DNA of 64,000 bases from NCBI GenBank assembly GCA_017434025.1, contig JAFRGC010000046.1:1-64000 (forward strand), given 5' to 3'. Under the pieces are notes generated by a model, which did no database searches, was not told the origin of the DNA, and was given only the letters and a program-made list of their open reading frames with translations. Every line of letters starts with the position of its first letter. Position 1 is the first letter of the stretch. Source of the stretch: Mogibacterium sp. GTDB lineage: Bacteria; Bacillota; Clostridia; Peptostreptococcales; Anaerovoracaceae. Position numbers and translations under genes: made by a program. This document shows, piece after piece, positions 5,716 to 62,366 of the stretch.

Positions 5716-7005
5716 ATGCCGGTAGGATTATTGTTCATACTGTTCGTTATATTTCTTATCATAGCGATCCCTGTGGGCATTACGCTCGGAATAACGGCCG
5801 TATTGCCTCACATATTCGATCCGTCGTTCACGGTGGGAGCAAAATATCTCATCAGAGCGATGTTCGGCGGACTCGACAGCTTCCCGCTCCTGGCGGTACC
5901 GATGTTCGTTCTCTCGGGCATCATCATGGCCAAAGGCGGGATATCACGCAAAATATTTGATATATTTGCTTACTTTTTCGGCAATTTCACTGCCGGAATG
6001 CCATGTGCAGTCATTGTTACATGTCTGTTCTACGGCGCGATCTCCGGATCCGCTCCGGCGACCGTCGCTGCCGTAGGCAGCATGACGATCCCGATCCTGG
6101 TCGGGCTCGGCTACGACAAGACGTTCTCGACATCTGTCGTAGCGGTCGCCGGCGGACTGGGTGTCATTATCCCGCCGAGTATTCCGTTCATCATGTACGG
6201 AATGGCATCCGGTGCGTCCGTAAGCGATCTGTTCCTGGCAGGAATCATCCCGGGACTCGTGATCGCAGCACTGCTCATGGGATACTCCGTATTCTACTGC
6301 AAGAAGAACGGAGAAGATAAAGACCGGATACAGGCTGAGATCGGAGCACTCCACAAGAAGGGCTTCGGTACAGTGTTCAAGGAGAGCTTCTGGGCGATCC
6401 TCAGCCCGGTCATAGTACTCGGCTGTATCTATTCGGGCATCACTTCTCCGACGGAAGCAGCGGTCATCTCGGTATACTACGCACTGATCGTCAGTCTCTT
6501 TATCTACAAGGAGATCGACTTCTCAGATCTGTGGGGCATACTTGTCGAAGCGATCAAGACTTACACGCCGATCCTGTTCATACTGGCAGCATCGACAGCG
6601 TTCTCGAGAGTCCTGACACTGATGCAGGTACCGCAGACAGTCAGCACGTTCATACTGGGCAACTTCTCGAGCAAAGTCGTGATCCTGCTCGTCATCAACG
6701 TGTTCCTGCTCGTCGTAGGAATGGTAATGGATACGACTCCGGCGATCCTGATCCTCACGCCGATCCTGCTGCCTATCGCGCAGGGAATCGGAATGGATCC
6801 GATCCAGTTCGGTGTGATCATGGTCGTCAACCTGGCTATCGGTTTCGTGACTCCGCCGATCGGCGTCAATCTGTTCGTTGCAAGCGCGCTGACAGATGTT
6901 CCGGTCATGAAGATCGCGAGAAAAGCTTTGCCGATGATCGCTTTGTTCCTTGTCGCGCTTCTGCTGTTCACATTCGTACCGGCGTTCTCGCTGGCACTGC
7001 TCTAG
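5716..7005 (+). CDS. dctM: TRAP transporter large permease (DctM)
   Basis: A 429-residue, very hydrophobic protein with roughly 12 membrane segments, the usual DctM size. Typical pieces are AMFGGLDSFPLLAVPMF near residue 50, the GAISGSAPATVAAVGS loop (about 109-124) and VIIPPSIPFIMYG (about 150-162), plus the C-terminal repeat GFVTPPIGVNLFVA. It is the ion-coupled translocation subunit. AAGGAG lies before its ATG and the next gene starts 10 bases after its stop, so dctQMP is one unit. Confidence 0.95.
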   Translation: MPVGLLFILFVIFLIIAIPVGITLGITAVLPHIFDPSFTVGAKYLIRAMFGGLDSFPLLAVPMFVLSGIIMAKGGISRKIFDIFAYFFGNFTAGMPCAVIVTCLFYGAISGSAPATVAAVGSMTIPILVGLGYDKTFSTSVVAVAGGLGVIIPPSIPFIMYGMASGASVSDLFLAGIIPGLVIAALLMGYSVFYCKKNGEDKDRIQAEIGALHKKGFGTVFKESFWAILSPVIVLGCIYSGITSPTEAAVISVYYALIVSLFIYKEIDFSDLWGILVEAIKTYTPILFILAASTAFSRVLTLMQVPQTVSTFILGNFSSKVVILLVINVFLLVVGMVMDTTPAILILTPILLPIAQGIGMDPIQFGVIMVVNLAIGFVTPPIGVNLFVASALTDVPVMKIARKALPMIALFLVALLLFTFVPAFSLALL

Positions 7006-7015
7006 GAGGTGCGCT

Positions 7016-8053
7016 ATGAGGACAAAATACAGAGACCGCATTTCAATGCGTTTTGCGGTGATCGCAGCGCTTGCTCTCATATGCGGACTGCTGGTAACAT
7101 CCTGCAGCAGCGATGACGGAGAGCAGAGATATGCTTATCCGCTTGCCACGGCAAGCCCGGAAGACACTGTTACGCAGATCTATTCAGAGAAATTCGCTGA
7201 AGAGGTCAGCAGGCTGAGTGACGGAAGGATCAAGATCCAGGTCTACGCCAACTCGACGCTCGGCGGTGACCGTGAACTGCTGGAATCGTGCAAGGACGGA
7301 GATATTCCGTTTGTTGTACAGAATACAGCTCCGCAGGTCACATTCATGCCTGATCTGGCGATATTCGATGTGCCGTGCGCGTTCGCGGAGCTCGATGAGT
7401 GCAGAGAGGTGCTGGACGATCCGGAATTCAGCAGCCTGATAAGCAGCGTTTACGAGAAGGGCGGCTATCAGCTGCTTGGCGTTGCAGACCAGGGGTTCCG
7501 TGTCATGAGCTCGAACAAGCCGGTGAAATCGATCAGCGACTTCAAAGGCCAGAAGATCCGTACGATGGAGAATCCGTTCCATCTGGCATTCTGGAAATCC
7601 ATCGGAGCCAATCCGACACCGATGAGCTTCTCAGAGGTGTATATCGGACTTCAGCAGCATACGATCGATGCGCAGGAGAATCCTTATGAGGTCATCGTAT
7701 CAAACAGGCTGTATGAGCAGCAGGATTATGTGATCGAGACCAATCATCTGCCGCATCTGATCACACTGATCATGAACGACGAGTTCTTCAAGAACATGTC
7801 TGCAGAAGATCAGAAGATCATGAAAGAAGCGGCGGCTACGGCAACTGCGTATGCGCGTCAGGCATCCGATGACAGGATCGCGGACAGAGTCAAGACTATC
7901 GAAGACAGCGGCACTGAGATCCTGAAGATCGACGAGAACACTTACCGTGCTATCGTCAAAGCAAGCGCCGAAGTGCGTGAGAGCATTCAGAGCAAAGTAG
8001 ATTCCGAAGTCTACAACACATTTATCGAATGTATCGATAAGTATCAGAATTAA
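7016..8053 (+). CDS. dctP: TRAP transporter solute-binding lipoprotein (DctP)
   Basis: A 345-residue DctP-type substrate-binding protein. A signal segment ending LLVTSC gives a lipobox, so it should be tethered to the outer face of the membrane, as expected in a Gram-positive. The mature part has GGDRELLESCKDG (about 83-95), the conserved Arg region GFRVMSSNKPV with KIRTMENP (about 160-190) that salt-bridges the carboxylate, and QEN near residue 220. I use the ATG at 7016, right after AGGAGGT; an upstream frame is a shadow of dctM. The ligand is an organic acid, perhaps a hydroaromatic acid by context. Confidence 0.93.
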   Translation: MRTKYRDRISMRFAVIAALALICGLLVTSCSSDDGEQRYAYPLATASPEDTVTQIYSEKFAEEVSRLSDGRIKIQVYANSTLGGDRELLESCKDGDIPFVVQNTAPQVTFMPDLAIFDVPCAFAELDECREVLDDPEFSSLISSVYEKGGYQLLGVADQGFRVMSSNKPVKSISDFKGQKIRTMENPFHLAFWKSIGANPTPMSFSEVYIGLQQHTIDAQENPYEVIVSNRLYEQQDYVIETNHLPHLITLIMNDEFFKNMSAEDQKIMKEAAATATAYARQASDDRIADRVKTIEDSGTEILKIDENTYRAIVKASAEVRESIQSKVDSEVYNTFIECIDKYQN

Positions 8054-22197: not shown

Positions 22198-23771
22198 GAG
22201 TTTTGTTCAAAGGCGGAAGTATTTACGATGGCACAGGCGCGAGAGCGTATACCGGCGACGTCCTGATCGAGGACGATATGATCGTCGAAGTCGGACCGCA
22301 GATCACTGCCGAGGCTGACAAAGTGGTCGATCTCGCAGGTCTGCAGATCTGCCCGGGACTGATCGACGCGCACTCCCACAACGATTTCTTCTATGACAGG
22401 GAAGACGCCGAGAAGTACTACAAGCCTTTCATAGAACAGGGCATCACGACACAGATCACAGGTAACTGCAGTTTCTCCCCGTTCGGAATGGATCCGGACA
22501 CACCATACAGAGATAAAATCGGAGGAGGCCTGTTCGATGCGCAGCATCCGGGCAGCTTTGCGGATTTCAAGAAGCGCGCAGCCGGCAACCTGTTTGTCAA
22601 CATGGTGCCGCTGATCGGCCAGGGTTCGGTCCGCGCGGGCATGACAGGCTACGACCCGACGCCGTATACGCAGGAGCAGATCGAGAAGGAGCTCACATAC
22701 GTGCGTGAAGCGATGGAAGGCGGAGCTTTCGGCGGATCGCTCGGTTTCATGTATGAACCGGACCGTTACGCGCAGGAAGACGAGATCATTGCTTTCGCCA
22801 AAGAGATCGCGAAATACGATGGTATCGTCACGATCCATCCGCGCGCATGCTCGATCGTCAGTGCTGACTATCCGCTGCTGACGAAGAAATCCCACCTTGA
22901 GATGGGCCTTGATGAAGCGGTCGACATCATGAAGAAGAGCGGATGCAGACTCGAGTACAGCCACCTGATCTTCACAGGACAGAGGAGCTGGAAGCTGCTC
23001 GACAAGATGCTCACGACATTCTACCGCGAGAAGAATAACGGCTATCCGATCGCGTTCGACAACTACGCGTTCCACTACGGCGCTTCGGTCATCACGGTCG
23101 TGTTCCCGGAGTGGTATGCACAGCTCAGCAGAGAGGAAGCTGCCAAACCGGTAAACCGCCGCAAGCTGGAGCTCACGATCCTCATGTACCGCAAAGTCCT
23201 GGGCATCGACTGGGACGACATGGTCGTCGCGTATATTTCCGATGAACATCCGGAGTACGAAGGCAAAACTATCCCGCAGTGCGCAGAGGAAGAAGGCCTG
23301 TCGAATCTCGACATGTACCTCAAGCTCGTCGACCTCTCGAACAGAGCGGGAAGCATCTATCTCGGCAAGTACTATAACGCTGAGATCGTCCGCCGCCTGA
23401 TGAACGACGAGATGTCCATTTTCATGACAGATGCATGGGTCGAGGAGAAAGGCTTGCAGAATATCGCGGCATTCCAGACATTCCCGCAGTTCTTCCTGCT
23501 GGGTCAGAGAGACGGTATGCCGATGGAGAAGATCGTCCGCAAGATGACCGGACTGACGGCAGACCGCTATCAGATCCCGCAGCGCGGCTATCTCAAGCCG
23601 GGATACAAGGCGGATATCACTGTGCTGGACATGTTCAACATGAAGGTCAATGAGGAGAAACCGGACTTCAGGCCGGAAGGCATCGTCCATGTCTATATCA
23701 ACGGCAAGCCGGTCATGGAGAACAGAGAATACCTCGGCGGCAGGGCAGGTGAAGTGGTGCTCAGGAAATAG
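22194..23771 (+). CDS. D-aminoacylase / N-acyl-D-amino-acid deacylase family amidohydrolase
   Basis: A 525-residue metal-dependent amidohydrolase. Ligand positions match D-aminoacylase: HSHND (about 62-66), the bridging Cys in GNCSFSPFG (about 88-96), GIVTIHPRA (about 210-218), LEYSHLIF (about 252-259) and FMTDAWVEEKG near 415. The start of the fold (GGSIYDGTGARAYTGDVLI) and the C-terminal beta sandwich (GYLKPGYKADITVLD) are complete. It would release D-amino acids from N-acyl forms. It overlaps the HD gene by ATGA. Confidence 0.9.
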   Translation: MRVLFKGGSIYDGTGARAYTGDVLIEDDMIVEVGPQITAEADKVVDLAGLQICPGLIDAHSHNDFFYDREDAEKYYKPFIEQGITTQITGNCSFSPFGMDPDTPYRDKIGGGLFDAQHPGSFADFKKRAAGNLFVNMVPLIGQGSVRAGMTGYDPTPYTQEQIEKELTYVREAMEGGAFGGSLGFMYEPDRYAQEDEIIAFAKEIAKYDGIVTIHPRACSIVSADYPLLTKKSHLEMGLDEAVDIMKKSGCRLEYSHLIFTGQRSWKLLDKMLTTFYREKNNGYPIAFDNYAFHYGASVITVVFPEWYAQLSREEAAKPVNRRKLELTILMYRKVLGIDWDDMVVAYISDEHPEYEGKTIPQCAEEEGLSNLDMYLKLVDLSNRAGSIYLGKYYNAEIVRRLMNDEMSIFMTDAWVEEKGLQNIAAFQTFPQFFLLGQRDGMPMEKIVRKMTGLTADRYQIPQRGYLKPGYKADITVLDMFNMKVNEEKPDFRPEGIVHVYINGKPVMENREYLGGRAGEVVLRK

Positions 23772-23798
23772 CACACATACAGGTATAAGGATAACCCA

Positions 23799-24995
23799 AT
23801 GTTTTCAAGAAGAAGTATCACAGCGCTGCTGCTGATCGTGATGATGATCGCAGCAGGCTGTTCTGCACATAGAAATGACGTTCCGGTGAATGAAGCTGCC
23901 GGAACGATCGCCGGACTGACGACGGCAGTGACGGCGGACAACAAAGCGCAATATGATTACACCGGCAAAGCCATGGAATACCTCGAGCGCATCGGTACCG
24001 AGTACAGGAACCGCATGCTGGACGGCAGCGGCGAAGACAACCGGCACGATGCCGCGCAGGAATGGATCATCTCCGAACTGAAGGCCGCAGGATACACTGA
24101 TGACCAGATCGTCAGGGAGGAATTCAGCGCAGACTGGCTGGGGACCGGACATAATATCATTCTGACGGTGGAGGGTGAAGACCCTTCCGGACAGATCATC
24201 GCCGGAGCGCATCTCGACGGGGACGGTGTCGGCGACAATGGTTCGGGAACTGCACTGCTGCTGGCGAACGCTGTCTCGATGCATGACATCAAGCCGCACT
24301 ATACGATCAAGTACATCTTCTTCGACGGAGAAGAAGACGGCTGCCTCGGGAGCGAATACAACGCAGGCCGGATGACTGACGAAGAGATCAGCCGGACGAT
24401 CTATATGATCAATCTGGACTGTCTGGCATTCGGCGATTACTGCAACATCTACGGCGGTTCGTACGGGGATGAAGGGATCCCGGTCGATGATTCGCAGCTC
24501 CGCGCACCGACAGCGACAGAAGCCTATGACTATGCGACGGATACCGCGGAGAACCTGGGATTTGGTGTGTGGAGGACTGCAGACCTCGACGGATATTATG
24601 CGAAGAACGGGACCGGCCCGGAAATAGAAGAAGGTACGTTCTATACCAATCCATGGACTCCGGACAATCCGGCGCCGTCCAACAACAGCGCTATGTCGCC
24701 GTCGACTCTGCCGGCAAGTGACCACATCGGATACATGGACCGGGGAATTGAGTACATTTACTTCGAGGCGACAAACTGGTTCGCGGAGAGCGAGAACGAC
24801 GAAGCTGACGCGATGTCGTATACAGGATATATCGAGACCTATGACCACTCGATCGGAGAATACGGCATGTTCATGAATACGGAGTACGATACCTGGGAGA
24901 ACCTGAACAAGTACTTCCCGGGCAGAGCGGAGAGCCATTTCCACCTGTATTCACCTCTGCTCTCAGCGCTGCTGCTCGCAGAACCGGAAGAATAA
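23799..24995 (+). CDS. M28-family metallopeptidase lipoprotein
   Basis: A 398-residue exported zinc peptidase. The signal peptide ends IAAGCSAH, a lipobox with Cys at about 24, so it is anchored outside the cell. Zinc-site pieces are AGAHLDGDGVGDNGSGTALL (about 130-149), FFDGEEDGCLGSEY (about 175-188) and MINLDCLAFGD (about 202-212), with a late SDHIGYMDRGIEY near 305. M28 enzymes are amino- or carboxypeptidases. Together with the D-aminoacylase-like enzyme and two carriers it suggests a peptide or acyl-amino-acid salvage run. A weak AAGGA site precedes the ATG. Confidence 0.88.
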   Translation: MFSRRSITALLLIVMMIAAGCSAHRNDVPVNEAAGTIAGLTTAVTADNKAQYDYTGKAMEYLERIGTEYRNRMLDGSGEDNRHDAAQEWIISELKAAGYTDDQIVREEFSADWLGTGHNIILTVEGEDPSGQIIAGAHLDGDGVGDNGSGTALLLANAVSMHDIKPHYTIKYIFFDGEEDGCLGSEYNAGRMTDEEISRTIYMINLDCLAFGDYCNIYGGSYGDEGIPVDDSQLRAPTATEAYDYATDTAENLGFGVWRTADLDGYYAKNGTGPEIEEGTFYTNPWTPDNPAPSNNSAMSPSTLPASDHIGYMDRGIEYIYFEATNWFAESENDEADAMSYTGYIETYDHSIGEYGMFMNTEYDTWENLNKYFPGRAESHFHLYSPLLSALLLAEPEE

Positions 24996-25016
24996 CATCT
25001 GACAGCAACAGATCCG

Positions 25017-25943
25017 ATGAAAAATGACAGCCGCCACAATCTAATAACCGGCACTCTGATCACTCTCGCAGGCGCAGGGCTGTGGGGGCTTAATGCGGTT
25101 GTGAGCAAATACCTCATGGCACGCGGTCTGGATAATATGTGGATGGCGAATTTCCGCATGATAACTTCGGGGTTTGCGCTGCTGCTGTATGCGCTTTACA
25201 GAAACCCCCGCGGCATGTTCGATATCTGGAAAGACCGCAGATCGGTGATACGGCTGCTTATCATAGCTGTTTTCGCATTCGGCATCTGCCAGCCTACGTA
25301 CTACCTGTCGATCGGGTACAGCAACGCAGGCATCGCCAGCGCGATCCAGCAGACCGCTCCTATCTTCGTACTGATCTGGGTCATCATCAGGGAGCGCAGG
25401 CTGCCGAGAGCGGCCGAACTCATAACGCTGCCGCTGGTAATTTTCGGATCATTCCTGATCGCAACTCATGGAGATCTGCATGCGCTTGCCGTGCATCCTC
25501 TCGCGCTGGTGTTCGGACTGATCTCAGCGCTGATGTGCGCGCTGTATATAACGCTGCCGGCAGAACTGATCAGGCGTTACGGTACGCTTGAGACGGTAGG
25601 CTGGGGTCTCTTCGTGGGAGGAATCGTCCTTGCGCCGTTCTGCAGACTCTGGGAGTTCCCGCAGACGTGGGACGCGTCGCTGATCGCCGGGATGGCATTC
25701 ATCATTTTGCCGGGGTCAGCAATGGCCTTCGCATTGTTCCTGTACGGAGCCAGCCGGGTCGGGCCGGTACGTGCAGGAGTTTACAATCTGTTCGAACCGG
25801 TAACAGCAGTCATTGCATCTGCTCTGTTCCTCCGGCAGAGCTTTCATATAACAGAGATCTTAGGTATAATCTGCATACTGTCAGGTATTGCGATCCTGAC
25901 AGTTGTACAGGGTAGAGATAAGGGGACAATCGATGGAAGTTAG
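25017..25943 (+). CDS. EamA/DMT-superfamily transporter (second)
   Basis: A 308-residue carrier with ten membrane segments in two EamA repeats: GAGLWGLNAVVSKYLMARG (about 19-37) opens the first, and ALYITLPAELIRRYG starts the second. The late block GPVRAGVYNLFEPVTAV is the standard EamA second-repeat motif. It starts 21 bases after the peptidase gene with no strong ribosome site and overlaps the next gene by 11 bases. Substrate unknown; amino-acid export would fit the neighbours. Confidence 0.86.
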   Translation: MKNDSRHNLITGTLITLAGAGLWGLNAVVSKYLMARGLDNMWMANFRMITSGFALLLYALYRNPRGMFDIWKDRRSVIRLLIIAVFAFGICQPTYYLSIGYSNAGIASAIQQTAPIFVLIWVIIRERRLPRAAELITLPLVIFGSFLIATHGDLHALAVHPLALVFGLISALMCALYITLPAELIRRYGTLETVGWGLFVGGIVLAPFCRLWEFPQTWDASLIAGMAFIILPGSAMAFALFLYGASRVGPVRAGVYNLFEPVTAVIASALFLRQSFHITEILGIICILSGIAILTVVQGRDKGTIDGS

Positions 25944-27705
25944 AAAAACCAGTATTCTGCAGCAGGTGATGGTACTGTTCGCAGTGGCGGTGATACTGAT
26001 CGGTGTATTCACCTATATTTCTCTGTACCTGATATCAGAGCACAGTGAGAAGGAGCATACGGAAGACCGTGCGAACCAGCTCTCTGCAGAGATCGCACTG
26101 GCGATCAGAGAATACCCATCACATAAGTGGCTGATCACATACTGGCATGAACATGCCGATGAGCTGGACATAGAATACGATGCCGAGTTCCAGTCGGGTA
26201 CGGAAACAGACAGGAAGTACAGTCTGTTGCTGTCGCATCAGCCGATGCTGCGGGTCCAGTACGCAACAGAAGAAGAAGTGGCCAAACTGCCTGCGGAGGA
26301 CCAGAAGCTCTTCGCGGAGATCGTCTATTCCTGGATCATCACGCGTCTCGATGAGCTTAAGGTCTGCTATGGAATGGATTACCTGTTCATCGTTATGACA
26401 GATGACACTTTCTCAGAGCAGTTCTTCCTGCTGAGTGCAGCGGATATCGATTCCGTACGGGGAACAGACTATGAAGAGGTCTATCCGCTGGGAGTAAAAG
26501 TCAAAGTCTCGGATGACCAGAAGGCAGCTATGCAGGATGCGGCAGAATTCGACAGACATCTGGCTGCTGCCGGAAATTATGTCGATTATTATGCTCTGCT
26601 GACCCAGATAGACAATTACTACGTCTTTATCGGTCTGACCTTCAATATGGAGGGCCTCAATGCCGATGTTGCGGTCCAGACGAGGAACGGCACATCTTTC
26701 ATCACGTTCATGGAACTGCTGCTGTCACTGATATGCCTGATGATGACAGCGTCGTATGTGATCAAACCGCTGAAGACAGTCCAGAACAATATCCGGACAT
26801 ATAAGGTGACCAAGGACAGCAGTACCATTATCAATGATCCGGAACTCATGAAGAACCGCAATGAGATCGGCGAGCTGGCGAATGACTTCAAAGATCTGGC
26901 GCTTGAGATGGATGAATATATCGACAGGATCGAGATGATCACTGCCGAGAGAGAGCGTATAGGGACGGAACTTGAAACGGCGAGGCAAATCCAGGCATCG
27001 ATGATGCCGAATATATTTCCGCCGTTCCCTGACCGCCACGAATTCGATGTCTATGCATCGATGGAGCCGGCCAAAGAAGTAGGAGGGGATTTCTACGATT
27101 TCTTCCTGATCGATGAAGACCATCTCGGTCTTGTGATCGCTGATGTATCCGGCAAGGGTATCCCTGCGGCGCTCCTCATGATGGCGACCAAGATCATACT
27201 GCAGAGCTACGCCAGACTTGGGTATTGTGCTGCTGATATCCTGGACAAGGTGAATGAGGCGGTCTGCTCCAACAATAAGGAGGAGATGTTCATTACAGTC
27301 TGGGTAGGCATTCTGGAGATCTCTACCGGCAAGCTTACTGCCGCAAATGCCGGACACGAATATCCTGTTATCAGGAGAGCCGGAGGAGACTTCGAACTGT
27401 ACAAGGACAGACATGGACTCGTCATCGGCGGAATGGAAGGGTCGAAATATTACGAATACGAGCTGCAGCTCAAGCCGGACGACAAACTGTTTGTGTTCAC
27501 GGATGGCGTCAACGAAGCGACTAACTCAGGCAATGAGCTGCTTGGAACTGACAGGATGATCAAAGCGCTGAACAATGATCCTGCAGCTTCACCGGAACAG
27601 ATCCTCGGAAATGTACACAAAGCGATCGACGACTTCGTACAGGATGCGGAGCAGTTCGACGATATTACGATGATGTGTCTGGAATACAGAGGATCGAAAG
27701 AATAA
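25933..27705 (+). CDS. Membrane-bound RsbU/SpoIIE-type serine phosphatase
   Basis: A 590-residue signalling protein. One membrane segment at about 12-35, an extracellular sensor of about 220 residues, a second segment near 260-280, a HAMP-like linker (VIKPLKTVQNNIRTYK), a coiled coil (AERERIGTELETARQIQASM) and a PP2C-like SpoIIE domain with GGDFYDFF (about 378-385) and VIADVSGKGIPAALLM (about 397-412). It should dephosphorylate an anti-anti-sigma factor in response to an outside signal. Start ATG 25933 follows AAGGGG; a frame from 25903 is only an extension. No partner kinase or STAS gene is in the window. Confidence 0.9.
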   Translation: MEVRKTSILQQVMVLFAVAVILIGVFTYISLYLISEHSEKEHTEDRANQLSAEIALAIREYPSHKWLITYWHEHADELDIEYDAEFQSGTETDRKYSLLLSHQPMLRVQYATEEEVAKLPAEDQKLFAEIVYSWIITRLDELKVCYGMDYLFIVMTDDTFSEQFFLLSAADIDSVRGTDYEEVYPLGVKVKVSDDQKAAMQDAAEFDRHLAAAGNYVDYYALLTQIDNYYVFIGLTFNMEGLNADVAVQTRNGTSFITFMELLLSLICLMMTASYVIKPLKTVQNNIRTYKVTKDSSTIINDPELMKNRNEIGELANDFKDLALEMDEYIDRIEMITAERERIGTELETARQIQASMMPNIFPPFPDRHEFDVYASMEPAKEVGGDFYDFFLIDEDHLGLVIADVSGKGIPAALLMMATKIILQSYARLGYCAADILDKVNEAVCSNNKEEMFITVWVGILEISTGKLTAANAGHEYPVIRRAGGDFELYKDRHGLVIGGMEGSKYYEYELQLKPDDKLFVFTDGVNEATNSGNELLGTDRMIKALNNDPAASPEQILGNVHKAIDDFVQDAEQFDDITMMCLEYRGSKE

Positions 27706-53115: not shown

Positions 53116-53144
53116 TTGACAGTGGGCGGCTGCACAGCTAGAAT
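53116..53144 (+). promoter_or_regulatory. Strong promoter of the Re-citrate-synthase-like gene
   Basis: TTGACA (53116-53121), 17-base spacer, TAGAAT (53139-53144). The leader before the coding start is about 100 bases and contains short AACAAC-rich repeats. Confidence 0.82.
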
Positions 53145-53249: not shown

Positions 53250-54677
53250 ATGAGCAATACTGAATTAGACAAGATCGACAGCTTTGATGCGATGGACAAT
53301 ACAAATAAGAGGAGGGCTAAGCTCAGCAACAGGACTAACCTGCTGGAGATGGAGGCTGTCCGCTATGAGGTGCAGGACATTCCTTCCCCAAATCTGTTCA
53401 GGGAGTTTTTCGAGTACACTGAGATCCCTAAGGTCGGATTCAACTTCAGGACCAGCCCGTACGATATGCCGGAGCAGATCTACATTACTGACTCCACATT
53501 CCGCGACGGCCAGCAGTCGAGGGAACCTTATACTCTCAAGCAGATCACCGACATCTTCAAGCTGATGTCTAGGCTGTCCGGCCCGAACGGCATCATCAGG
53601 CAGACAGAATTCTTCACCTACAGCGACCGTGACAAGGCAGCTATCAGAGCGTGCCAGGATCTTGGCCTTGAGTTCCCGCAGATAACCACCTGGATCCGCG
53701 CGAAGAAAGAGGACTTCAAGATCGTCAAAGAGATGGGTGTCAAGGAGACCGGCATTCTTACCAGCTGCTCCGACTACCACATCTTCTACAAGCTCGGCAT
53801 GTCGAGGAAGCAGGCGATGAATCATTACCTCTCCGTGGTGTACGATGCTTTCGAGGCAGGGATCAAACCGCGCTGCCATCTGGAGGACATCACAAGAGCG
53901 GACTTCTACGGATTTGTCGTACCGTTCGTGACCGCCGTGCAGGACATGGCACGCGAGGCAAAACTCCCGGTCAAAATCAGATTGTGCGATACGATGGGTT
54001 ACGGCGTTCCGTATCCTGGAGCGACGATGCCGAGATCAGTCGCGGGCGTCATCTACGGACTCAAACAGTACGCCGGCGTTCCGAGCGAAGATCTCGAGTG
54101 GCACGGTCACAATGATTTCTACAAAGCGGTCGTCAACGCAGCCACAGCCTGACTGTACGGATGCGGAGCAGTCAACTGCACTTTGTTCGGCATAGGCGAG
54201 CGCACCGGCAATATCCCGGTAGAGGCAATGGTGTTCGAATACGCACAGCTCAGAGGGACCCTGGATGGCATGGATACAACAGCTATTACTGATCTCGTAA
54301 GATACTACGAGCAGCAGGTCGGATACACGATGCCGCCGCAGACACCTTTCGCAGGAGCGAACTTCAACGTTACGAGAGCAGGTATCCACGCGGACGGACT
54401 GCTCAAGAATGAAGAAATATACAACATCTTCGACACAGGCAAATTCCTCAACAGGCCGCCGCTGGTCAACATCAACCAGGCTTCCGGCGCAGCAGGCATC
54501 GCTCACTGGATCAACAGCAGCTACGGACTCAAGGGCGACAAGCAGGTCAACAAGCACAGCGACATCGTTGCATACATCAAAGCCTGGGTCGACAGCGAGT
54601 ACGAGAGCGGCCGTGTGGCTGAGATCGGCGGACAGGAGATCCACAACAAGATCAATGAATTCATGACAGAGAGGTAG
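53250..54677 (+). pseudogene. Re-citrate-synthase-like (HMGL/isopropylmalate-synthase family) gene with one in-frame UGA
   Basis: One reading frame of 475 codons is broken only by TGA at 54150-54152 (codon 301). Before it: TDSTFRDGQQSREPY with the catalytic Asp/Arg, CHLEDITRADFYGF, DTMGYGVPYPGA and WHGHNDF. After it, in the same frame: LYGCGAVNC, FGIGERTGN, GIHADG. Both halves are needed for the barrel and no residue seems missing. Related proteins, as I recall them, have Trp at this spot, one base from UGA. The family joins acetyl-CoA and oxaloacetate to citrate; the neighbours aconitase and isocitrate dehydrogenase support this over isopropylmalate synthesis. ATG 53250 follows AGGA; ATG 53169 is an alternative with no ribosome site. 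It may be a fresh mutation, a sequence error, or read through. Confidence 0.8.
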
Positions 54678-54680
54678 GAC

Positions 54681-55847
54681 ATGAACAGTACTTCCGCAGA
54701 TAAAGTGCTCAGAGCACTGCCTAAGAACGGCGAGTTTGGTGCAGGCAGCGCAATAGGCCTCAGATACGCGAAGATACGCGCAGAACTGACGGATCTCGGT
54801 CTCTACGACAGAGATTCTCTGATCATGCTTAGGGACGGAGCCGGCAGAGTCGTGCTGGATTGTTACGGCAGGAGAGTCAGCCCTGACGTTTTCGGTGAGA
54901 TACAGGCGGAGCTCGCGGTTCTGACCAGCGGGAAATACTCCAAAGCCTACTCCCGCAGGAACAGAGCGGTCAAAGCCTCGAATGACGACATGGCGATGAT
55001 GTTCGGCTACAAAGTGAGCAGAACAGAGAGCGCCGGCCCGGGGACGATCGCGTGCCTGATCAGAGACAGAGGCTTTATCGTGACGGCGAGATTCCCGAGT
55101 GAACTGATCGCAGCATGCATCCTCATGGAGAAGATGTGCAAAACAGAGATCCTGTCACACCATATCGGCAGAGTGCACCACCTGAATCCTGTGCTCAGCG
55201 CCGTTGGTCACAGAGTATACATGACGAAATACTCGAAGAAGGCCAGGGAGGCAAGTGAGGCTGACGCAGCAGCGGGCAATAACAATGCCCCGGCAGAAAT
55301 CAGCGACCTCGCTCTGAGAGAAGCGGTCATAGAATACGGCAAACTTCTGGTCGAGAACAGGCTCATCCAGGCAACCTGGGGCAATGTTTCGGTGAGGATC
55401 GATGATGACAGGTTCCTGATCACACCGTCAGGCGTCAATTACGACCTGATCAAGCCGGAAGAGATCGTTGAGATCAGAGTGGATGACGGAAGTTACGCGG
55501 AAGGCCTCCGCCCATCCAGCGAGAGGATCCTCCACCGGCTGGTCTACAAAGAGAGACCGGACATCAAAGCGATCATCCATACCCATTCGTCCAACTGCCA
55601 GGTGTTCGCGGCGTGCCACGAGCCCCTCAAGACAGGCGGCATCGATTATCCTTGCGCAGAGTACGGTATGAGCGGTTCTGCCAAATTGGCGGAAAATGTC
55701 GCTGCAGTCATGGCGAATCATGACGGATGCATCATGGCGAATCACGGATTCGTCGCGGGAGACGTATCCCTCGCCGCAGCCCTCGAGAGAGCGAAGCAGG
55801 CAGAGGAAGCGGCAGGACGGATCCTTGGCGATGTATCAATAGACTGA
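54681..55847 (+). CDS. Class II aldolase/adducin-family protein with extra N-terminal domain
   Basis: A 388-residue protein. Residues 210-385 are a class II aldolase-like domain: TWGNVSVRI, FLITPSGVNYD, the zinc pair in IIHTHSSNC (about 297-305) and MANHGFVAG (about 352-360). The first 195 residues are not a standard partner; they resemble a worn copy of the same fold, for example CLIRDRGFIVTARF beside CIMANHGFVAGDV, with the metal His lost. An Ala/Asn-rich linker (ADAAAGNNNAPAE) joins them. It starts 3 bases after the citrate-synthase-like gene. Substrate unknown; probably a sugar-phosphate or hydroxyacid aldolase or decarboxylase. Confidence 0.82.
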   Translation: MNSTSADKVLRALPKNGEFGAGSAIGLRYAKIRAELTDLGLYDRDSLIMLRDGAGRVVLDCYGRRVSPDVFGEIQAELAVLTSGKYSKAYSRRNRAVKASNDDMAMMFGYKVSRTESAGPGTIACLIRDRGFIVTARFPSELIAACILMEKMCKTEILSHHIGRVHHLNPVLSAVGHRVYMTKYSKKAREASEADAAAGNNNAPAEISDLALREAVIEYGKLLVENRLIQATWGNVSVRIDDDRFLITPSGVNYDLIKPEEIVEIRVDDGSYAEGLRPSSERILHRLVYKERPDIKAIIHTHSSNCQVFAACHEPLKTGGIDYPCAEYGMSGSAKLAENVAAVMANHDGCIMANHGFVAGDVSLAAALERAKQAEEAAGRILGDVSID

Positions 55848-56084: not shown

Positions 56085-58328
56085 ATGATCAGATATATCC
56101 CGCAGGGCACACAATGGGTCAACGGTGCTCCGCAAGCAGCAGCCGAAAGCGTTGACAAATGCGCCGGCCGCAACGGCACTATCGCTTACCAGATCATGAA
56201 CGCACACCGTGATCAGACAGAGGACGGGATCTTTCATATCAGGTTTGACGCGCTGGTGTCCCACGACATCACTTATGTAGGAATCATCCAGACCGCCAGA
56301 GCGAGCGGACTCAAGGAATTCCCTATCCCTTATGCTATGACGAACTGCCACAACAGCCTGTGCGCAGTAGGCGGAACGATCAACGAGGATGACCACGTAT
56401 TCGGTCTCTCGGCTGCCAAGAAATACGGCGGCATCTATGTTCCGGCCAATCAGAGCGTCATCCACTCTTACGCAAGAGAAGAACTGACAGCTTGCGGAAA
56501 CATGATCCTCGGATCAGACAGCCATACCCGTTACGGTGCTCTCGGTACGATGGGCGTCGGCGAGGGCGGGCCGGAGCTCGTCAAGCAGCTTCTTAAGAAC
56601 ACTTACGATATCAACCCTCCTGAAGTCGTGCTCTGCTACGTTACCGGCAAGCCTCGCAAAGGCATCGGCCCTCACGATGTAGCGATCGCGCTCGTCAAGG
56701 AGACCTTCGGCAAAGGCCTGGTCAAGAACAAGATCCTTGAGTTCGCAGGCCCGGGGCTGGAATACCTTCCGTATGATTTCCGCAGCGGCATCGATGTCAT
56801 GACGACTGAGACCACATGCCTCTCATCCATCTGGGCAACAGATGAGGAGATCAGGAAGTACTACGAGATCCATAAGCGCCCAGAGTGCTACAGGAAGCTC
56901 GAACCGGCAGAAGGCGCTTACTACGATGCCATCATCACGATCGAACTCGATAAGATGGAATCGATGATCGCGCTTCCGTTCCATCCGTCCAATGCTTATA
57001 CGATCCATGAGTTCCTTGAGAACGCAGATGAGATCCTCGCAGGCGTTGAGGCTGAAGCAGCGAAGAAGTTCCCTAAGGCTCATCTGGATCTGCGTTCCAA
57101 GATCAGCGAAGCGGGCGTTCTCGCTAACCAGGGCATCATTGCAGGCTGCTCGGGCGGTATCTTCGACAACATCGTAGAAGCAGCTGACATTCTCGAAGGC
57201 GGCAGCACAGGCAATGGCTATTTCTCACTGTCCGTATATCCGACGAGCGTACCGACCAGCCTCGCACTCACACGTGCAGGCAAGACTGAGGCACTGCTCG
57301 AAGCAGGCGCAGTGATCAAGCCATCGTTCTGCGGACCATGCTTCGGTGCAGGAGACGTTCCTGCCAACAACGGTCTCTCGCTCCGCCACACCACCAGGAA
57401 CTTCCCGAACAGAGAAGGTTCCAAGCCGGGAGAAGGCCAGATCAGCGCAGTAGCCCTGATGGATTCGAGATCGATCGCTGCTACCGCTAAGAATGGTGGA
57501 TACATCACAGCAGCAACCGATATAGATTACGAGACAGAGCATCTCGAATATGAATTTGACAATGCAGTATACAAGAAGCGCTGCTACTATGGATTCGGCA
57601 AAGCGGATCCTGACGCAGAGCTGATCCTCGGACCGAACATCACGGACTGGCCGAAGATGTACCAGCTCGCTGACAACATGCTGCTCGAACTGGCTGCGGT
57701 CATCCGCGACCCGGTCACAACGACTGACGAGCTGATCCCGTCCGGAGAGACTTCTTCGTACAGGAGCAATCCTCTGCGTCTGTCCGAGTTCGCACTTTCA
57801 CGCCGCGTCCCTGAGTATGTAGGACGTTCCAAGGCTGTCGCAGCAGACGAGGCTGCACGCCGCGCCGGAGAAGAACCGGCCAAACTCGTCAAGGTCCTCG
57901 GAGCTGTCGGTGATGCCGGTGAACTCATGAAGAACACACAGTTTGGCTCGTGCGTATTCGCCAACAAGCCAGGCGACGGTTCCGCACGTGAGCAGGCTGC
58001 ATCGTGCCAGAAGGTGCTCGGTGGTTTCGCGAATATCTGCTATGAGTACGCGACCAAGCGTTACCGCAGCAACTGCATCAACTGGGGAATCATTCCGTTC
58101 ACACTGGCACAGGGAGCTGAGTTCCCTTATGAAGAGGGAGACTTCGTATTCGTACCGGGCATCCGCGCTGCGATCGCATCCGGTCAGGAAGAGATCCCGG
58201 CCAAAGTCGTACGCAAGGATGGCTCCGTTGAGGAGATCACACTGTATGTGAAGGGCCTCACACAGGATGAGAAGACAATAATACTTGAAGGCTGCCTCAT
58301 GAATTACTACGCAGCACAGAACAGATAG
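56085..58328 (+). CDS. Aconitase-family hydratase
   Basis: A 747-residue aconitase-fold enzyme. Fe-S cluster cysteines are in [10 protein letters not shown] (about 354-363) and [10 protein letters not shown] (about 414-423); substrate-site pieces are [19 protein letters not shown] (in pieces, about 144-163) and [13 protein letters not shown] near 557. It is longer than small archaeal forms and not the AcnB layout. Given icd directly after it, interconversion of citrate and isocitrate is the natural role. GGGAGG precedes the ATG; 17 bases separate it from icd. Confidence 0.9.
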
Positions 58329-58345
58329 ATACAGAAGGAGCATTT

Positions 58346-59560
58346 ATGGATAAGATCAAAATGACTACTCCGCTGGTGGAGATGGACGGAGACGAGATGA
58401 CCAGGATCCTCTGGAAGATGATCAAGGATGAACTGATCCTGCCATTCGTTGACCTCAAGGTTGAATACTATGATCTCGGACTTCCTGTACGTGATGAGAC
58501 TGGCGACCAGATCACCAAGGATGCCGGCAATGCGATCAAGAAGTACGGCGTCGGCGTCAAGTGCGCCACAATCACACCGAATGCGCAGCGTATGACTGAG
58601 TACAACCTGCATGAGATGTGGAAGAGCCCTAACGGCACGATCCGTGCGATCCTCGACGGTACTGTCTTCCGCGCTCCTATCACAATCGACAGCATCAAGC
58701 CGGTCGTCCGCAACTGGAAGAAGCCTATCACCGTCGCTCGTCACGCTTACGGCGACCTGTACAAAGGCACAGAGTACCGCGTCCCTGAGAAGGGCAAAGC
58801 CGAGCTGGTATTCACCGGCGAGAACGGCGCGGAGTTCCGCGAGACCGTGTACGATTTCGAATGCCCGGGCATCATCCAGAGCATCTACAACAAGGACAGC
58901 TCCATCACATCCTTCGCTCATTCGTGCTTCAAATACGCGATCGAGACCAAGCAGGATCTGTGGTTCTCGTCCAAGGATACGATTTCCAAGAAATACGATA
59001 TGCACTTCCGCAATACCTTCCAGAAGGTATACGACGAGTGCTACAAAGAAGAGTTCGAGCGCCTCGGCCTGACCTACTTCTATACACTGATCGATGACGC
59101 GATCGCACGTGTCATCCGCAGCGAAGGAGGATTCATCTGGGCTCTCAAGAACTATGACGGCGATGTCATGAGCGACATGGTTTCCACCGCGTTCGGATCC
59201 CTTGCTATGATGACATCCGTACTGTGCAGCCCGGACGGCAAGTTCGAGTATGAAGCAGCACACGGCACTGTAACACGCCACTATTACAAATACCTCAAGG
59301 GTGAGGAGACTTCGACAAATCCTATGGCTACGATCTTTGCATGGAGTGGCGCTCTCAGGAAGCGCGGCGAGATGGACGGACTGGAAGACCTGCAGGATTT
59401 TGGCGACAAACTGGAAGAGGCATGCATCGATACCCTCAACGACGGAATCATGACGAAGGACCTGGTCGGACTCGTAGACGGAATGGAAGTCAAGTCAGTC
59501 AATTCGCTCGACTTCATCCGCGCGATCCGCGAGCGTCTCGAGAAGAAGCTGGCAAACTGA
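58346..59560 (+). CDS. icd: NADP-dependent isocitrate dehydrogenase
   Basis: A 404-residue enzyme of the eukaryote-like (type II) NADP-IDH group. [20 protein letters not shown] (about 9-28), [28 protein letters not shown] (in pieces, about 74-101), the Asp pair in [12 protein letters not shown] (about 248-259) and [13 protein letters not shown] (about 306-318) are clear. It makes 2-oxoglutarate from isocitrate. AAGGAG precedes ATG. citD follows after 55 bases. Confidence 0.95.
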
Positions 59561-59615: not shown

Positions 59616-59915
59616 ATGAAGATTCTTAAATCCGCAGTCGCAGGCACTCTTGAGAGCAGTGACTGCATGGTGACGGTCGAGCCGGGATCGAACGGGATCG
59701 AGTTCGATCTTGAGAGTGCTGTCATCCGCCAGTATGGCAAACAGATACGCAAGGTCACGCTGGAGACGCTCGGCCGTCTCGGCGTCAGAAATGCCAAAGT
59801 CCACATGGTCGACAAAGGCGCTTTGGACTGCACGATCAAGGCGAGAGTCGAGTGTGCGTGCATGCGCGCTTCCGAGCATGAAGGCAGGATCAACTGGGGA
59901 GGTGTTATAAGATGA
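59616..59915 (+). CDS. citD: Citrate lyase acyl carrier protein (gamma subunit)
   Basis: A 99-residue CitD. MKILKSAVAGTLESSDCMVTVEP at the start holds Ser14-Ser15, where the phosphoribosyl-dephospho-CoA group is attached. The rest (MVDKGALDCTIKARVECACMRA) matches the family. It carries the acetyl group during citrate cleavage. GAGGAGAG precedes ATG; it overlaps citE by ATGA. Confidence 0.95.
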   Translation: MKILKSAVAGTLESSDCMVTVEPGSNGIEFDLESAVIRQYGKQIRKVTLETLGRLGVRNAKVHMVDKGALDCTIKARVECACMRASEHEGRINWGGVIR

Positions 59916-60814
59916 GCAATCCTAACAAATACCGCCTGCGCAGGACGATGATGTTCCTGAACTGCCAGAAGCCTGGCCTGATCAAAGACCCATATGTTTA
60001 TAAACCGGATTCGATCATGCTTGACCTGGAAGACGCTGTAGCTGAGAGAGAGAAGGATGCTGCGAGATACTCGCTTTATCACGCACTTAAGGAGATCGAT
60101 TACCGCGGGGTCGAGAGAGTTGTCCGCATCAACGGCCTCGATACTGACCTCTGGCGCGAAGATATCAGATGCGCGGTCGCAGGAGGATGTGATTCCATCC
60201 GTATCCCTAAGACCGAGACTGCCGATGATGTGCGCACCGTCGAATACGCAATCGCAGAGGCAGAGCGTGAATTCCGCAGACCGGAAGGAAGCGTGCTGAT
60301 TATGGCTGCGCTCGAATCCGCAAGGGGAGTCATCAACGCTATGAGCATCTGCGACTCATCGGAGAGACTCTTCGGTATCGCACTGTCCGGCGGAGATTAT
60401 TCCAAGGATCTGCAGGTTTCCATCTCAGGAACCGGTGTTGAATTCATGGGCGCAAGACAGCACATGATCATCGCAGCGAGGGCAGCCAAAGTCCAGTGCT
60501 TCGACACAGTATGGACCAACCTCGATGACATGGAAGGTTTCAGGAAAGAAGTCGAGACGATACACGCCATGGGATTTGACGGCAAATCCATAGTCAACCC
60601 GAGACAGATCCCGATCGTCCACAAGATATACACTCCTAAGGAGAAAGAGATCATCTTCGCTGAGAAGGTCATCAAGGAGATCGACGAGAAGAAGGCACAG
60701 GGCATCGGCGTATTCACGGTAGACGGTAAGATGATCGACATCGCGTTCTACGACGGAGCGAAGAGAACGATTGCGCTTGCCAAGGCTTCAGGTGTATATA
60801 AGGGGGATTTGTAA
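59912..60814 (+). CDS. citE: Citrate lyase beta subunit (citryl-ACP lyase)
   Basis: A 300-residue TIM-barrel lyase. SIMLDLEDAVAEREKDAAR (about 30-48) carries the metal Glu/Asp, VVRINGLDTDLWRED (about 70-84) the CoA arm site, and FGIALSGGDYSKDL a later metal residue. It splits citryl-ACP to oxaloacetate and acetyl-ACP. GGAGG precedes its ATG, inside the end of citD. Confidence 0.96.
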   Translation: MSNPNKYRLRRTMMFLNCQKPGLIKDPYVYKPDSIMLDLEDAVAEREKDAARYSLYHALKEIDYRGVERVVRINGLDTDLWREDIRCAVAGGCDSIRIPKTETADDVRTVEYAIAEAEREFRRPEGSVLIMAALESARGVINAMSICDSSERLFGIALSGGDYSKDLQVSISGTGVEFMGARQHMIIAARAAKVQCFDTVWTNLDDMEGFRKEVETIHAMGFDGKSIVNPRQIPIVHKIYTPKEKEIIFAEKVIKEIDEKKAQGIGVFTVDGKMIDIAFYDGAKRTIALAKASGVYKGDL

Positions 60815-60815
60815 G

Positions 60816-62366
60816 ATGATTAATGCAGTAGGCAGAGAGATCCCGGACGAGATACTGGAGATCACCGGCAAGGAGCCTTTCCAGGGCAACTACTATCGTG
60901 ATGATGTACCTATGACGAAGATCGGTCCGACCATTCGTCCGGTAATGAATAATCAGAAATCCAAACTGGTAGCAAACATCCGCGAGGCACTGATCAAATG
61001 CGAAGCGCATGACGGCATGACGGTTTCGTTCCACCATCACTTCCGCGACGGCGACCTCATCGTGAACATGGTCATGAAAGAGATCCACGATATGGGTCTC
61101 AAGGATATCACGATCTGCGCGACGTCACTGGGCAAAGCGCACGCACCGCTTGTCCCGATGATCGAGGACGGTACGATCACCGGCATCGAGTCATCCGGAG
61201 TAAGAGGAGCGATCGGCGAGGCGATCTCGCAGGGCAAACTCAAGAAGCTTGCGATCATGAGATCACACGGCGGCAGAGTCAGAGCTCTGACGACCGGCGA
61301 GAGCCACGTAGATATCGCTTTCATCGGCGCGCCGACATCGGATGACTACGGCAACCTCAGAGGTATCGGAGGCAAAGCAGACTGCGGAGTACTCAGCTAC
61401 GCGATCGTAGACGGCAACCATGCAGACTACTGTGTCGCGATCACAGACTGCCTCGTTCCGTATCCGAACTTCCCGGCTCATATCGCTCAGACCAAGGTCG
61501 ATTACGTATGCGTTGTCGACGAGATCGGTATCCCGTCCAAGATCGCTTCCGGTGCAGCCAAGCCGACAACCGATCAGAGAAAACTGCTGATGGCGCAGTA
61601 CTGCACTGATGTCGTTGTGAATACTCCTTGGTTCAAGGAAGGGTTCTCATACCAGACAGGAGTTGGCGGAGCATCGATCGCTTCCACACAGTATCTCGCA
61701 GAGATCATGAGGGAGCGCAATATACACATGGGATTTGGCGTTGGAGGACTGACCAAAGCAATGTGCCAGCTCCTCGATGACGGTATGGCGAGGGTGCTGC
61801 TCGACGTGCAGGACTTCGACCTGGATGCCGTTAAGAACCTCAAGAATGTCAACCACCACAGGATCCCTGCTGGTGTCTACGCGAATCCGCTGAACAAGGG
61901 TGCAGTCGTCAACAAGCTCGACTACGTAGTACTTGCTTCGCTGGAAGTCGATGTACACTTCAACTGCAACGTTGTCGTGGGATCAGACGGAATGATCACC
62001 GGAGCGCAGGGCGGCCACCCTGACACTGCTCAAGGCGCGAAGTGCGCGATCGTCATCTGCCCGCTGATGCAGGGCCGTATCCCGGCGATCTGCACGGATG
62101 TAACGACAGTCACCACACCGGGTGAGAGCATCGACGTCGTCGTTACCGATTACGGCGTAGCGGTCAACCCTGCAAGGCCTGACATCCTGGAAGCGCTCAA
62201 AGCAGCTGACTGCGTGCCTCTCAAGACGATCGAAGAGCTGCGTGACATCGCGTACTCCATCGTAGGCAAACCTGAGAAGGTCGAATTCGAGGACAGAGTC
62301 GTCGGTATCATCGAAGCGCGTGACGGAACGATCATAGACGTAGTAAGACAGATCAAAGAGATCTAG
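60816..62366 (+). CDS. citF: Citrate lyase alpha subunit (citrate:acetyl-ACP transferase)
   Basis: A 516-residue CitF. The start MINAVGREIPDEILEITGKEPF and blocks FHHHFRDGDLIVNMV (about 67-81), SSGVRGAIGEAISQGKL and GAQGGHPDTAQGAK near 392 fit the family. It exchanges acetate for citrate on the carrier protein. ATG 60816 follows AAGGGGG; the frame from 60771 is an extension into citE. No citC or citX is in the window; citG is nearby on the other strand. Confidence 0.96.
   Translation: MINAVGREIPDEILEITGKEPFQGNYYRDDVPMTKIGPTIRPVMNNQKSKLVANIREALIKCEAHDGMTVSFHHHFRDGDLIVNMVMKEIHDMGLKDITICATSLGKAHAPLVPMIEDGTITGIESSGVRGAIGEAISQGKLKKLAIMRSHGGRVRALTTGESHVDIAFIGAPTSDDYGNLRGIGGKADCGVLSYAIVDGNHADYCVAITDCLVPYPNFPAHIAQTKVDYVCVVDEIGIPSKIASGAAKPTTDQRKLLMAQYCTDVVVNTPWFKEGFSYQTGVGGASIASTQYLAEIMRERNIHMGFGVGGLTKAMCQLLDDGMARVLLDVQDFDLDAVKNLKNVNHHRIPAGVYANPLNKGAVVNKLDYVVLASLEVDVHFNCNVVVGSDGMITGAQGGHPDTAQGAKCAIVICPLMQGRIPAICTDVTTVTTPGESIDVVVTDYGVAVNPARPDILEALKAADCVPLKTIEELRDIAYSIVGKPEKVEFEDRVVGIIEARDGTIIDVVRQIKEI

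Follow-up and report, generated by a model that had tools for sequence, protein, structure and literature searches.

An in-frame TGA at a conserved tryptophan codon of the Re-citrate-synthase-like gene in a draft Mogibacterium sp. genome

The Re-citrate synthase of Clostridium kluyveri resembles isopropylmalate and homocitrate synthases. The same likeness holds for Heliomicrobium HM1_2993 in the available part of PMC12016533, where a deletion of Re-citrate synthase was obtained and a glutamine requirement is discussed. In-frame stops in bacterial genes are, in the part of PMC7918605 at hand, widespread, under purifying selection on average and apt to be short-lived, persisting for the most part only at the scale of population polymorphism; that study kept stops common to orthologues in at least two species, to avoid artefacts. 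In-frame UGA codons also occur in bacterial selenoproteins, in genomes with selenocysteine machinery, and nearly all selenoproteins have Cys homologues according to the accessible text of PMC13188914. Finally, the section of PMC13092985 available deals with UGA-to-Trp reassignment and with readthrough by tRNA-Trp(CCA) carrying G24A or a 4-bp anticodon stem.

Within the window (i.e., the whole stretch of 64,000 nucleotides that was analysed), positions 53250-54677 of the forward strand form a 475-codon frame with a TGA at codon 301 (54150-54152) as its sole internal stop and a terminal TAG at 54675-54677 (Table 1). The TGA is in phase and flanked on both sides by conserved sequence, and the copies of congeners align straight through the site, in agreement with an earlier note, made from the sequence alone, which had described a frame intact on both sides of the TGA, without frameshift or lost residue, and a UGA filling exactly one residue position. 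The Pfam HMGL-like domain (residues 77-349, 118 bits) spans the stop. A split protein formed by restart after the UGA was rejected, the first in-frame ATG lying 25 codons on, beyond GIGERTGN; restart at the TTG at 54183 would retain this motif, and the use of that TTG is without support.

Table 1. Positions of the interrupted gene, its presumed signals and its downstream neighbours in the window.
Feature	Position	Strand	Remark
Sigma-A-type promoter-like site TTGACA-17-TAGAAT	53116..53144	+	exact position read
In-frame alternative start ATG	53169	+	same gene
First 300 codons of the Re-citrate-synthase-like gene, including the HGHNDF motif	53250..54149	+	most congener matches begin at codons 4-24
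In-frame TGA	54150..54152	+	TGG (Trp) at the site in the 109 related loci read
Dyad TGACTG...CAGTCA	54150..54174	+	off SECIS spacing; attributed to coding conservation
Remaining 174 codons: end of the HMGL-like domain (GIGERTGN) and C-terminal part (GIHADG)	54153..54674	+	conserved, stop-free
Class II aldolase-domain protein, next gene downstream	54681..55847	+	
Aconitase-like hydratase and NADP-isocitrate dehydrogenase	56085..59560	+	next steps after citrate
CitE (citrate lyase beta-like) and CitF (alpha)	59912..62366	+	CitE below NCBIfam cut-off

The best NCBIfam matches of the product were homocitrate and isopropylmalate synthases, all far below cut-off, and its closest solved relatives were isopropylmalate, homocitrate and citramalate synthases. 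The frame has an HMGL-like/IPMS-type domain and, as HGHNDF, an HxH metal motif, both of them expected of a Re-citrate synthase. Si-citrate synthase (PF00285) was detected in none of seven genomes searched (the own genome and six congeners), whereas 13 of 14 control genomes gave a match, and no second citrate synthase was recognised in the genome. It is probably of the Re (isopropylmalate-synthase-like) type, a name given on genomic context, with the stereochemistry presumed. A lineage in which no Si-citrate synthase was found and a gene near aconitase-like and isocitrate dehydrogenase genes are features shared with the Re-citrate synthase case; unlike the genes of Clostridium kluyveri and Heliomicrobium HM1_2993, the present one is interrupted by UGA.

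The promoter with a spacing of 17 that had been proposed upstream was recovered, and 27 of 30 genus members, counting the own gene, have a site with at most two mismatches from the sigma-A consensus in the 350 nt ahead of the gene (a count made without a shuffle control). The upstream neighbour is trpS; downstream, a LysR regulator and CitG are encoded on the opposite strand. With the hydratase, the dehydrogenase, CitE, CitF and CitG nearby, the citrate-related surroundings of the gene are confirmed, while the dependence of these neighbours on citrate is the earlier note's own reading. The product of 54681-55847 (388 aa) shows a class II aldolase domain only at residues 215-378; no Pfam family was found in its first 200 residues at the threshold used.

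The residue at codon 301, which had been put forward as a probable tryptophan, was read in related loci. All 29 other congener loci have TGG, and so do all 80 loci taken from named genomes (the best 80 of at least 587 matches), so that TGA is one transition away from the codon of the relatives; the own locus is the sole one with TGA. No relative among these 109 loci lacks a residue at the position, and all encode Trp there. Three of the named-genome loci (L039, L040 and L041) match congener loci L017, L020 and L025, respectively, letter for letter near the site and are apparent duplicates, leaving about 106 distinct loci. Among the matches listed, the loci at 83-84% identity include 'Mogibacterium sp. 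isolate RGIG2296' and 'Clostridiales bacterium isolate SIG269', which, from the letters that L040 shares with L020 and L039 with L017, seem to be congeners G016 and G002, respectively. Close matches in G032 and G005 and a more distant one in G059 (same order), which stand outside the 109-locus residue count, have no internal stops. In two alignments to solved structures, inspected by eye, the aligned residue is not Trp. Among the 31 congeners with a close copy, a stop inside the gene was seen only in G007 (a TAG near the N-terminus). In this orthologue (L016, on contig C121) the TAG is accompanied by a shifted N-terminus; the sequence separating two short repeats seems to have been deleted, whether as a true lesion or through an assembly fault.

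Beyond the UGA, none of the 89 columns that are invariant in 29 congeners was changed (157 aligned codons, with GIGERTGN and GIHADG among the conserved parts pointed out before), and there is no further stop; before the UGA, three of 155 such columns were changed. Among 30 genes the own mean pN/pS ranked 27th before and 26th after the UGA, i.e., similarly and only a little high on the two sides. Neither measure shows relaxed selection past the lesion, as is expected if the lesion is young. Since the distances to six near congeners at 4-fold sites amount to 1.1-1.75, the own lineage is long; neutrality over the whole branch would predict a hundred or more changes at the 89 codons, at which zero were seen. 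By a rough estimate from about 208 nonsynonymous-plus-stop sites, which assumes that half of the pairwise distance falls on the own branch, neutral decay could occupy only about 3% of that branch. Given that there is no decay after the UGA and that the promoter-like site is retained, the change is either very young or partly read through.

The preferred reading, to which a probability of about 0.6 is assigned, is that TGG has recently mutated to TGA, giving a nonsense allele of a gene missing from some congener assemblies, i.e., an ordinary loss-of-function change. A G-to-A transition would have converted the conserved Trp codon to TGA in the strain, or in the consensus sequenced, a real allele being presumed. 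Ribosomes would terminate at codon 301, and because termination would fall inside the HMGL-like domain the truncated product should be inactive. If the change is very young, the promoter and the downstream residues would still be intact. A disabling change in a gene that is intact in its relatives, by which pseudogenes are recognised, is what the alignments display. The present stop is consistent with the pattern in the available part of PMC7918605: it shares with the recent in-frame nonsense alleles treated there a lone in-frame stop, an otherwise conserved gene and no relaxed selection, but it differs from the stops kept in that study in being confined to a single genome.

The lesion may be tolerable where glutamate or citrate is imported (such nutritional rescue being presumed), and assemblies of congeners without the gene suggest that its loss is bearable. 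Four of 35 same-genus genomes have no close copy: G022 gave no match, and G020, G030 and G031 gave distant homologues only (listed completeness 92-95% for G022, G030 and G031, with 7% contamination in G022, and 59% for G020; some of these absences may be gaps). G031 keeps an aconitase (86%) and icd (89%), together with citE and citF of lower similarity, within 18 kb that yield no Re-citrate-synthase match; hydratase matches are only distant in G030 and were not found in G022. With the Heliomicrobium deletion in mind, loss is probably tolerable where nutrients allow, and may by extension be so in the present organism. Against a nonsense allele it must be held that, no other citrate synthase being recognised, loss of the gene should cost glutamate synthesis, and that an intact promoter and downstream part would be predicted equally by function through readthrough.

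Nonsense mutation and sequencing error had both been listed as options for the UGA, and both survive, the one as the preferred reading and the other as its main rival. According to the latter, the TGA is a base error or a minority variant in a draft consensus, probably assembled from a metagenome, and the cells carry TGG and a working enzyme. The own genome is a 2.22-Mb draft in 89 contigs with a completeness of 83.8%, and it is the one genome of the species examined. No other lesion and no decay occur in the gene, its promoter is kept, no other citrate synthase was found in the genome, and a second genus assembly (G007) also has an odd lesion in its copy. Single-sequence in-frame TGA clusters were likewise treated as mere candidates, with sequencing error as a possible cause, in the accessible portion of PMC1088965. 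On the other hand, the assembly is not visibly error-ridden, insofar as the nine other split-gene candidates that were run against Pfam (10 of 30, see below) have no domain spanning the stop, and a transition to TGA is also a common natural change. An error is judged unlikely, though it is to be taken seriously.

Readthrough of the UGA by tRNA-Trp at a useful rate, which would restore the native residue and yield less full-length enzyme, the stop acting as a throttle on expression, is a doubtful alternative with a smaller chance than error. Trp at all 109 loci read means that a near-cognate tRNA-Trp would insert the native residue, no decay is seen past the UGA, and many bacterial in-frame stops are argued not to be pseudogenes in the part of PMC7918605 at hand. 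The stop stands in a UGA-C context, and +4C, especially with UGA, is associated with inefficient termination in the available text of PMC5289835. However, this C opens a Leu codon that is also present in the TGG relatives (CTN in 28 of 29 congeners, TTG in L037), so it was not selected for leakiness, and UGA-C also ends ordinary ORFs (4 of 20 TGA stops in the window). The stop itself is absent from all related loci (0/109), and all six congener tRNA-Trp genes of host type that were read have G24 and an anticodon stem of 5 bp (L215, L217, L221, L222, L223 and L228; G24 by hand). Of the programmed readthrough considered in the earlier note there remain a context that is leaky in general and the A24 tRNA-Trp borne by C68, another contig of this genome; no other positive evidence was found, and no orthologous locus has the stop.

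The C68 tRNA-Trp(CCA) lies in a tRNA cluster and has a 5-bp anticodon stem and an A24 paired with U11 (position 24 was assigned by hand); PMC13092985 names G24A, the Hirsh change, as promoting the reading of UGA. Its T-loop, TTAAAAT, is odd. The tRNA clusters of C68 are found at 6543-7090 and 23086-26296 (L166 and L167), and several of their tRNAs are divergent second versions of tRNAs on other contigs. C68 looks phage-like: one of its proteins (805 aa) hits phrog_23782 at 2e-270 and has relatives at 42-47% identity in 21 viral-contig loci, and PHROG families, though no named structural one, are matched by six of the ten C68 proteins scanned. The contig is probably a phage or a related element in the bin. 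TGA ends 20 of 62 ORFs on C68, which counts against readthrough; the element thus shows no sign of using UGA as Trp itself. Congeners G010, G012 and G001 contain tRNA arrays (L216, L219 and L229) with a second type of tRNA-Trp(CCA); the array-type genes have a mismatched top anticodon-stem pair (i.e., a 4-bp stem) and A24 in three of three genes read, one at each of these three loci, and both traits are tied to UGA reading in the available section of PMC13092985. It is very improbable that the tRNA-Trp(CCA) of the phage-like contig, with its A24-U11 pair, reads the UGA-C as Trp when expressed, which would leave the host reliant on a mobile, near-cognate suppressor tRNA for the one citrate synthase recognised in it.

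A reassignment of UGA to Trp in the genetic code of the organism found no support in the stretches and loci sampled. TGA serves as an ordinary terminator: of the 51 window ORFs with a length of 120 aa or more, 22 end in it (the list counts the interrupted frame and an antisense ORF opposite it), as do 84 of the 266 ORFs from five host-like contig stretches (C55, C41, C11, C50 and C45). A survey of 464 kb gave 30 coding-like frame pairs split by one stop (9 TGA, 13 TAG and 8 TAA), of which ten were run against Pfam (six of the TGA, three of the TAG and one of the TAA candidates, with none of the six candidates of C68 among them). A domain spans the stop only in the Re-citrate-synthase-like gene, for which reason the lesion looks isolated; an absent spanning domain is no proof that two frames are two genes. 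An ARAGORN scan of own loci, which took in the tRNA-like places located, yielded no tRNA-Trp(UCA), a partial negative at 83.8% completeness; the only tRNA with a UCA anticodon was tRNA-Sec. A host tRNA-Trp of the own genome was likewise not found in these loci, the sole own tRNA-Trp being the CCA copy on C68. The systems in the available part of PMC13092985 have in common with the present case a UGA at a Trp site and an A24 tRNA-Trp, here on C68; they differ in that UGA is here an ordinary stop in the sampled stretches, that a single site is concerned and that the host-type tRNA-Trp of congeners is canonical in the six genes read.

The organism has selenocysteine machinery, for which a search had been recommended. 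The selA and selB genes and one tRNA-Sec gene (C45:13411-13503, L001) lie together on C45, and a second, different tRNA-Sec gene (C61:316-409, L002) is found on C61, where it adjoins genes resembling, by eye, subunits of the glycine-reductase complex. A GrdB-like gene (labelled by eye; L202:1761-3080, reverse strand, on own contig C65) has an in-frame UGA within GSTUGTCTRCG, and this UGA, used as a selenocysteine control, is followed in the SECIS model by a GGC-loop hairpin with a gap of 18 nt and -14.5 kcal/mol. UGA is thus probably decoded as selenocysteine elsewhere in the genome. A search for GRDA in the own genome gave only fragments at contig ends; C61 and C65 seem to end in the same grdA-like piece, which suggests two grd loci collapsed at a repeat.

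At codon 301, selenocysteine is strongly disfavoured despite this machinery and the GrdB-like precedent, and is hardly credible. Cys or UGA was found in none of the 109 relatives, all of which have Trp. The SECIS scan, our own implementation of the bSECIS constraints in the accessible text of PMC13188914 (apical loop of 3-9 nt, upper stem of 4-16 pairs, G in the first two loop positions, 16-37 nt from the UGA, and at most -7.5 kcal/mol), is passed by the own site at its edge (gap 37, loop GCATAGG, -8.6 kcal/mol), but it is also passed by 76 of 109 TGG controls, including 16 of 29 congeners, and the model is therefore non-discriminating here. The gene shares with bacterial selenoproteins such as the GrdB-like one an in-frame UGA in a genome with the machinery, and differs from them in that its relatives have Trp rather than Cys, in the non-discriminating SECIS result and in that no second UGA-bearing orthologue occurs among the loci read.

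The GACTG...CAGTC dyad reported around the UGA is present, and the UGA itself forms the 5' base of its stem; it is not evidence of recoding. Its apical loop is only 7 nt past the UGA, which lies within the stem, against the 16-37 nt of the SECIS model. As a regulatory element the dyad was rejected: the stability of the 61-nt fold does not exceed that of shuffled sequences (z -0.54, with 49 of 200 shuffles at least as stable), and the 3' arm also occurs in TGG congeners L013 and L016. The position of trpS beside a gene with UGA at a Trp codon was dismissed as coincidence, since an orthologous trpS (at least 89% identity) lies within about 4 kb in six of eight TGG congener stretches (the exceptions being L184, with only a 31% trpS-like match, and L186, with none).

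Should the TGA prove to be fixed and the codon read through, an enzyme of central metabolism would be sustained by UGA-to-Trp readthrough, a surprising state of affairs. For the present, the matter is of little consequence: what is seen in one draft genome looks like an isolated nonsense change or a sequence error, not like a new reading of the code. It does provide a clean example that an in-frame UGA in a selenocysteine-using bacterium is not to be called selenocysteine without Cys/Sec pairs in the relatives.
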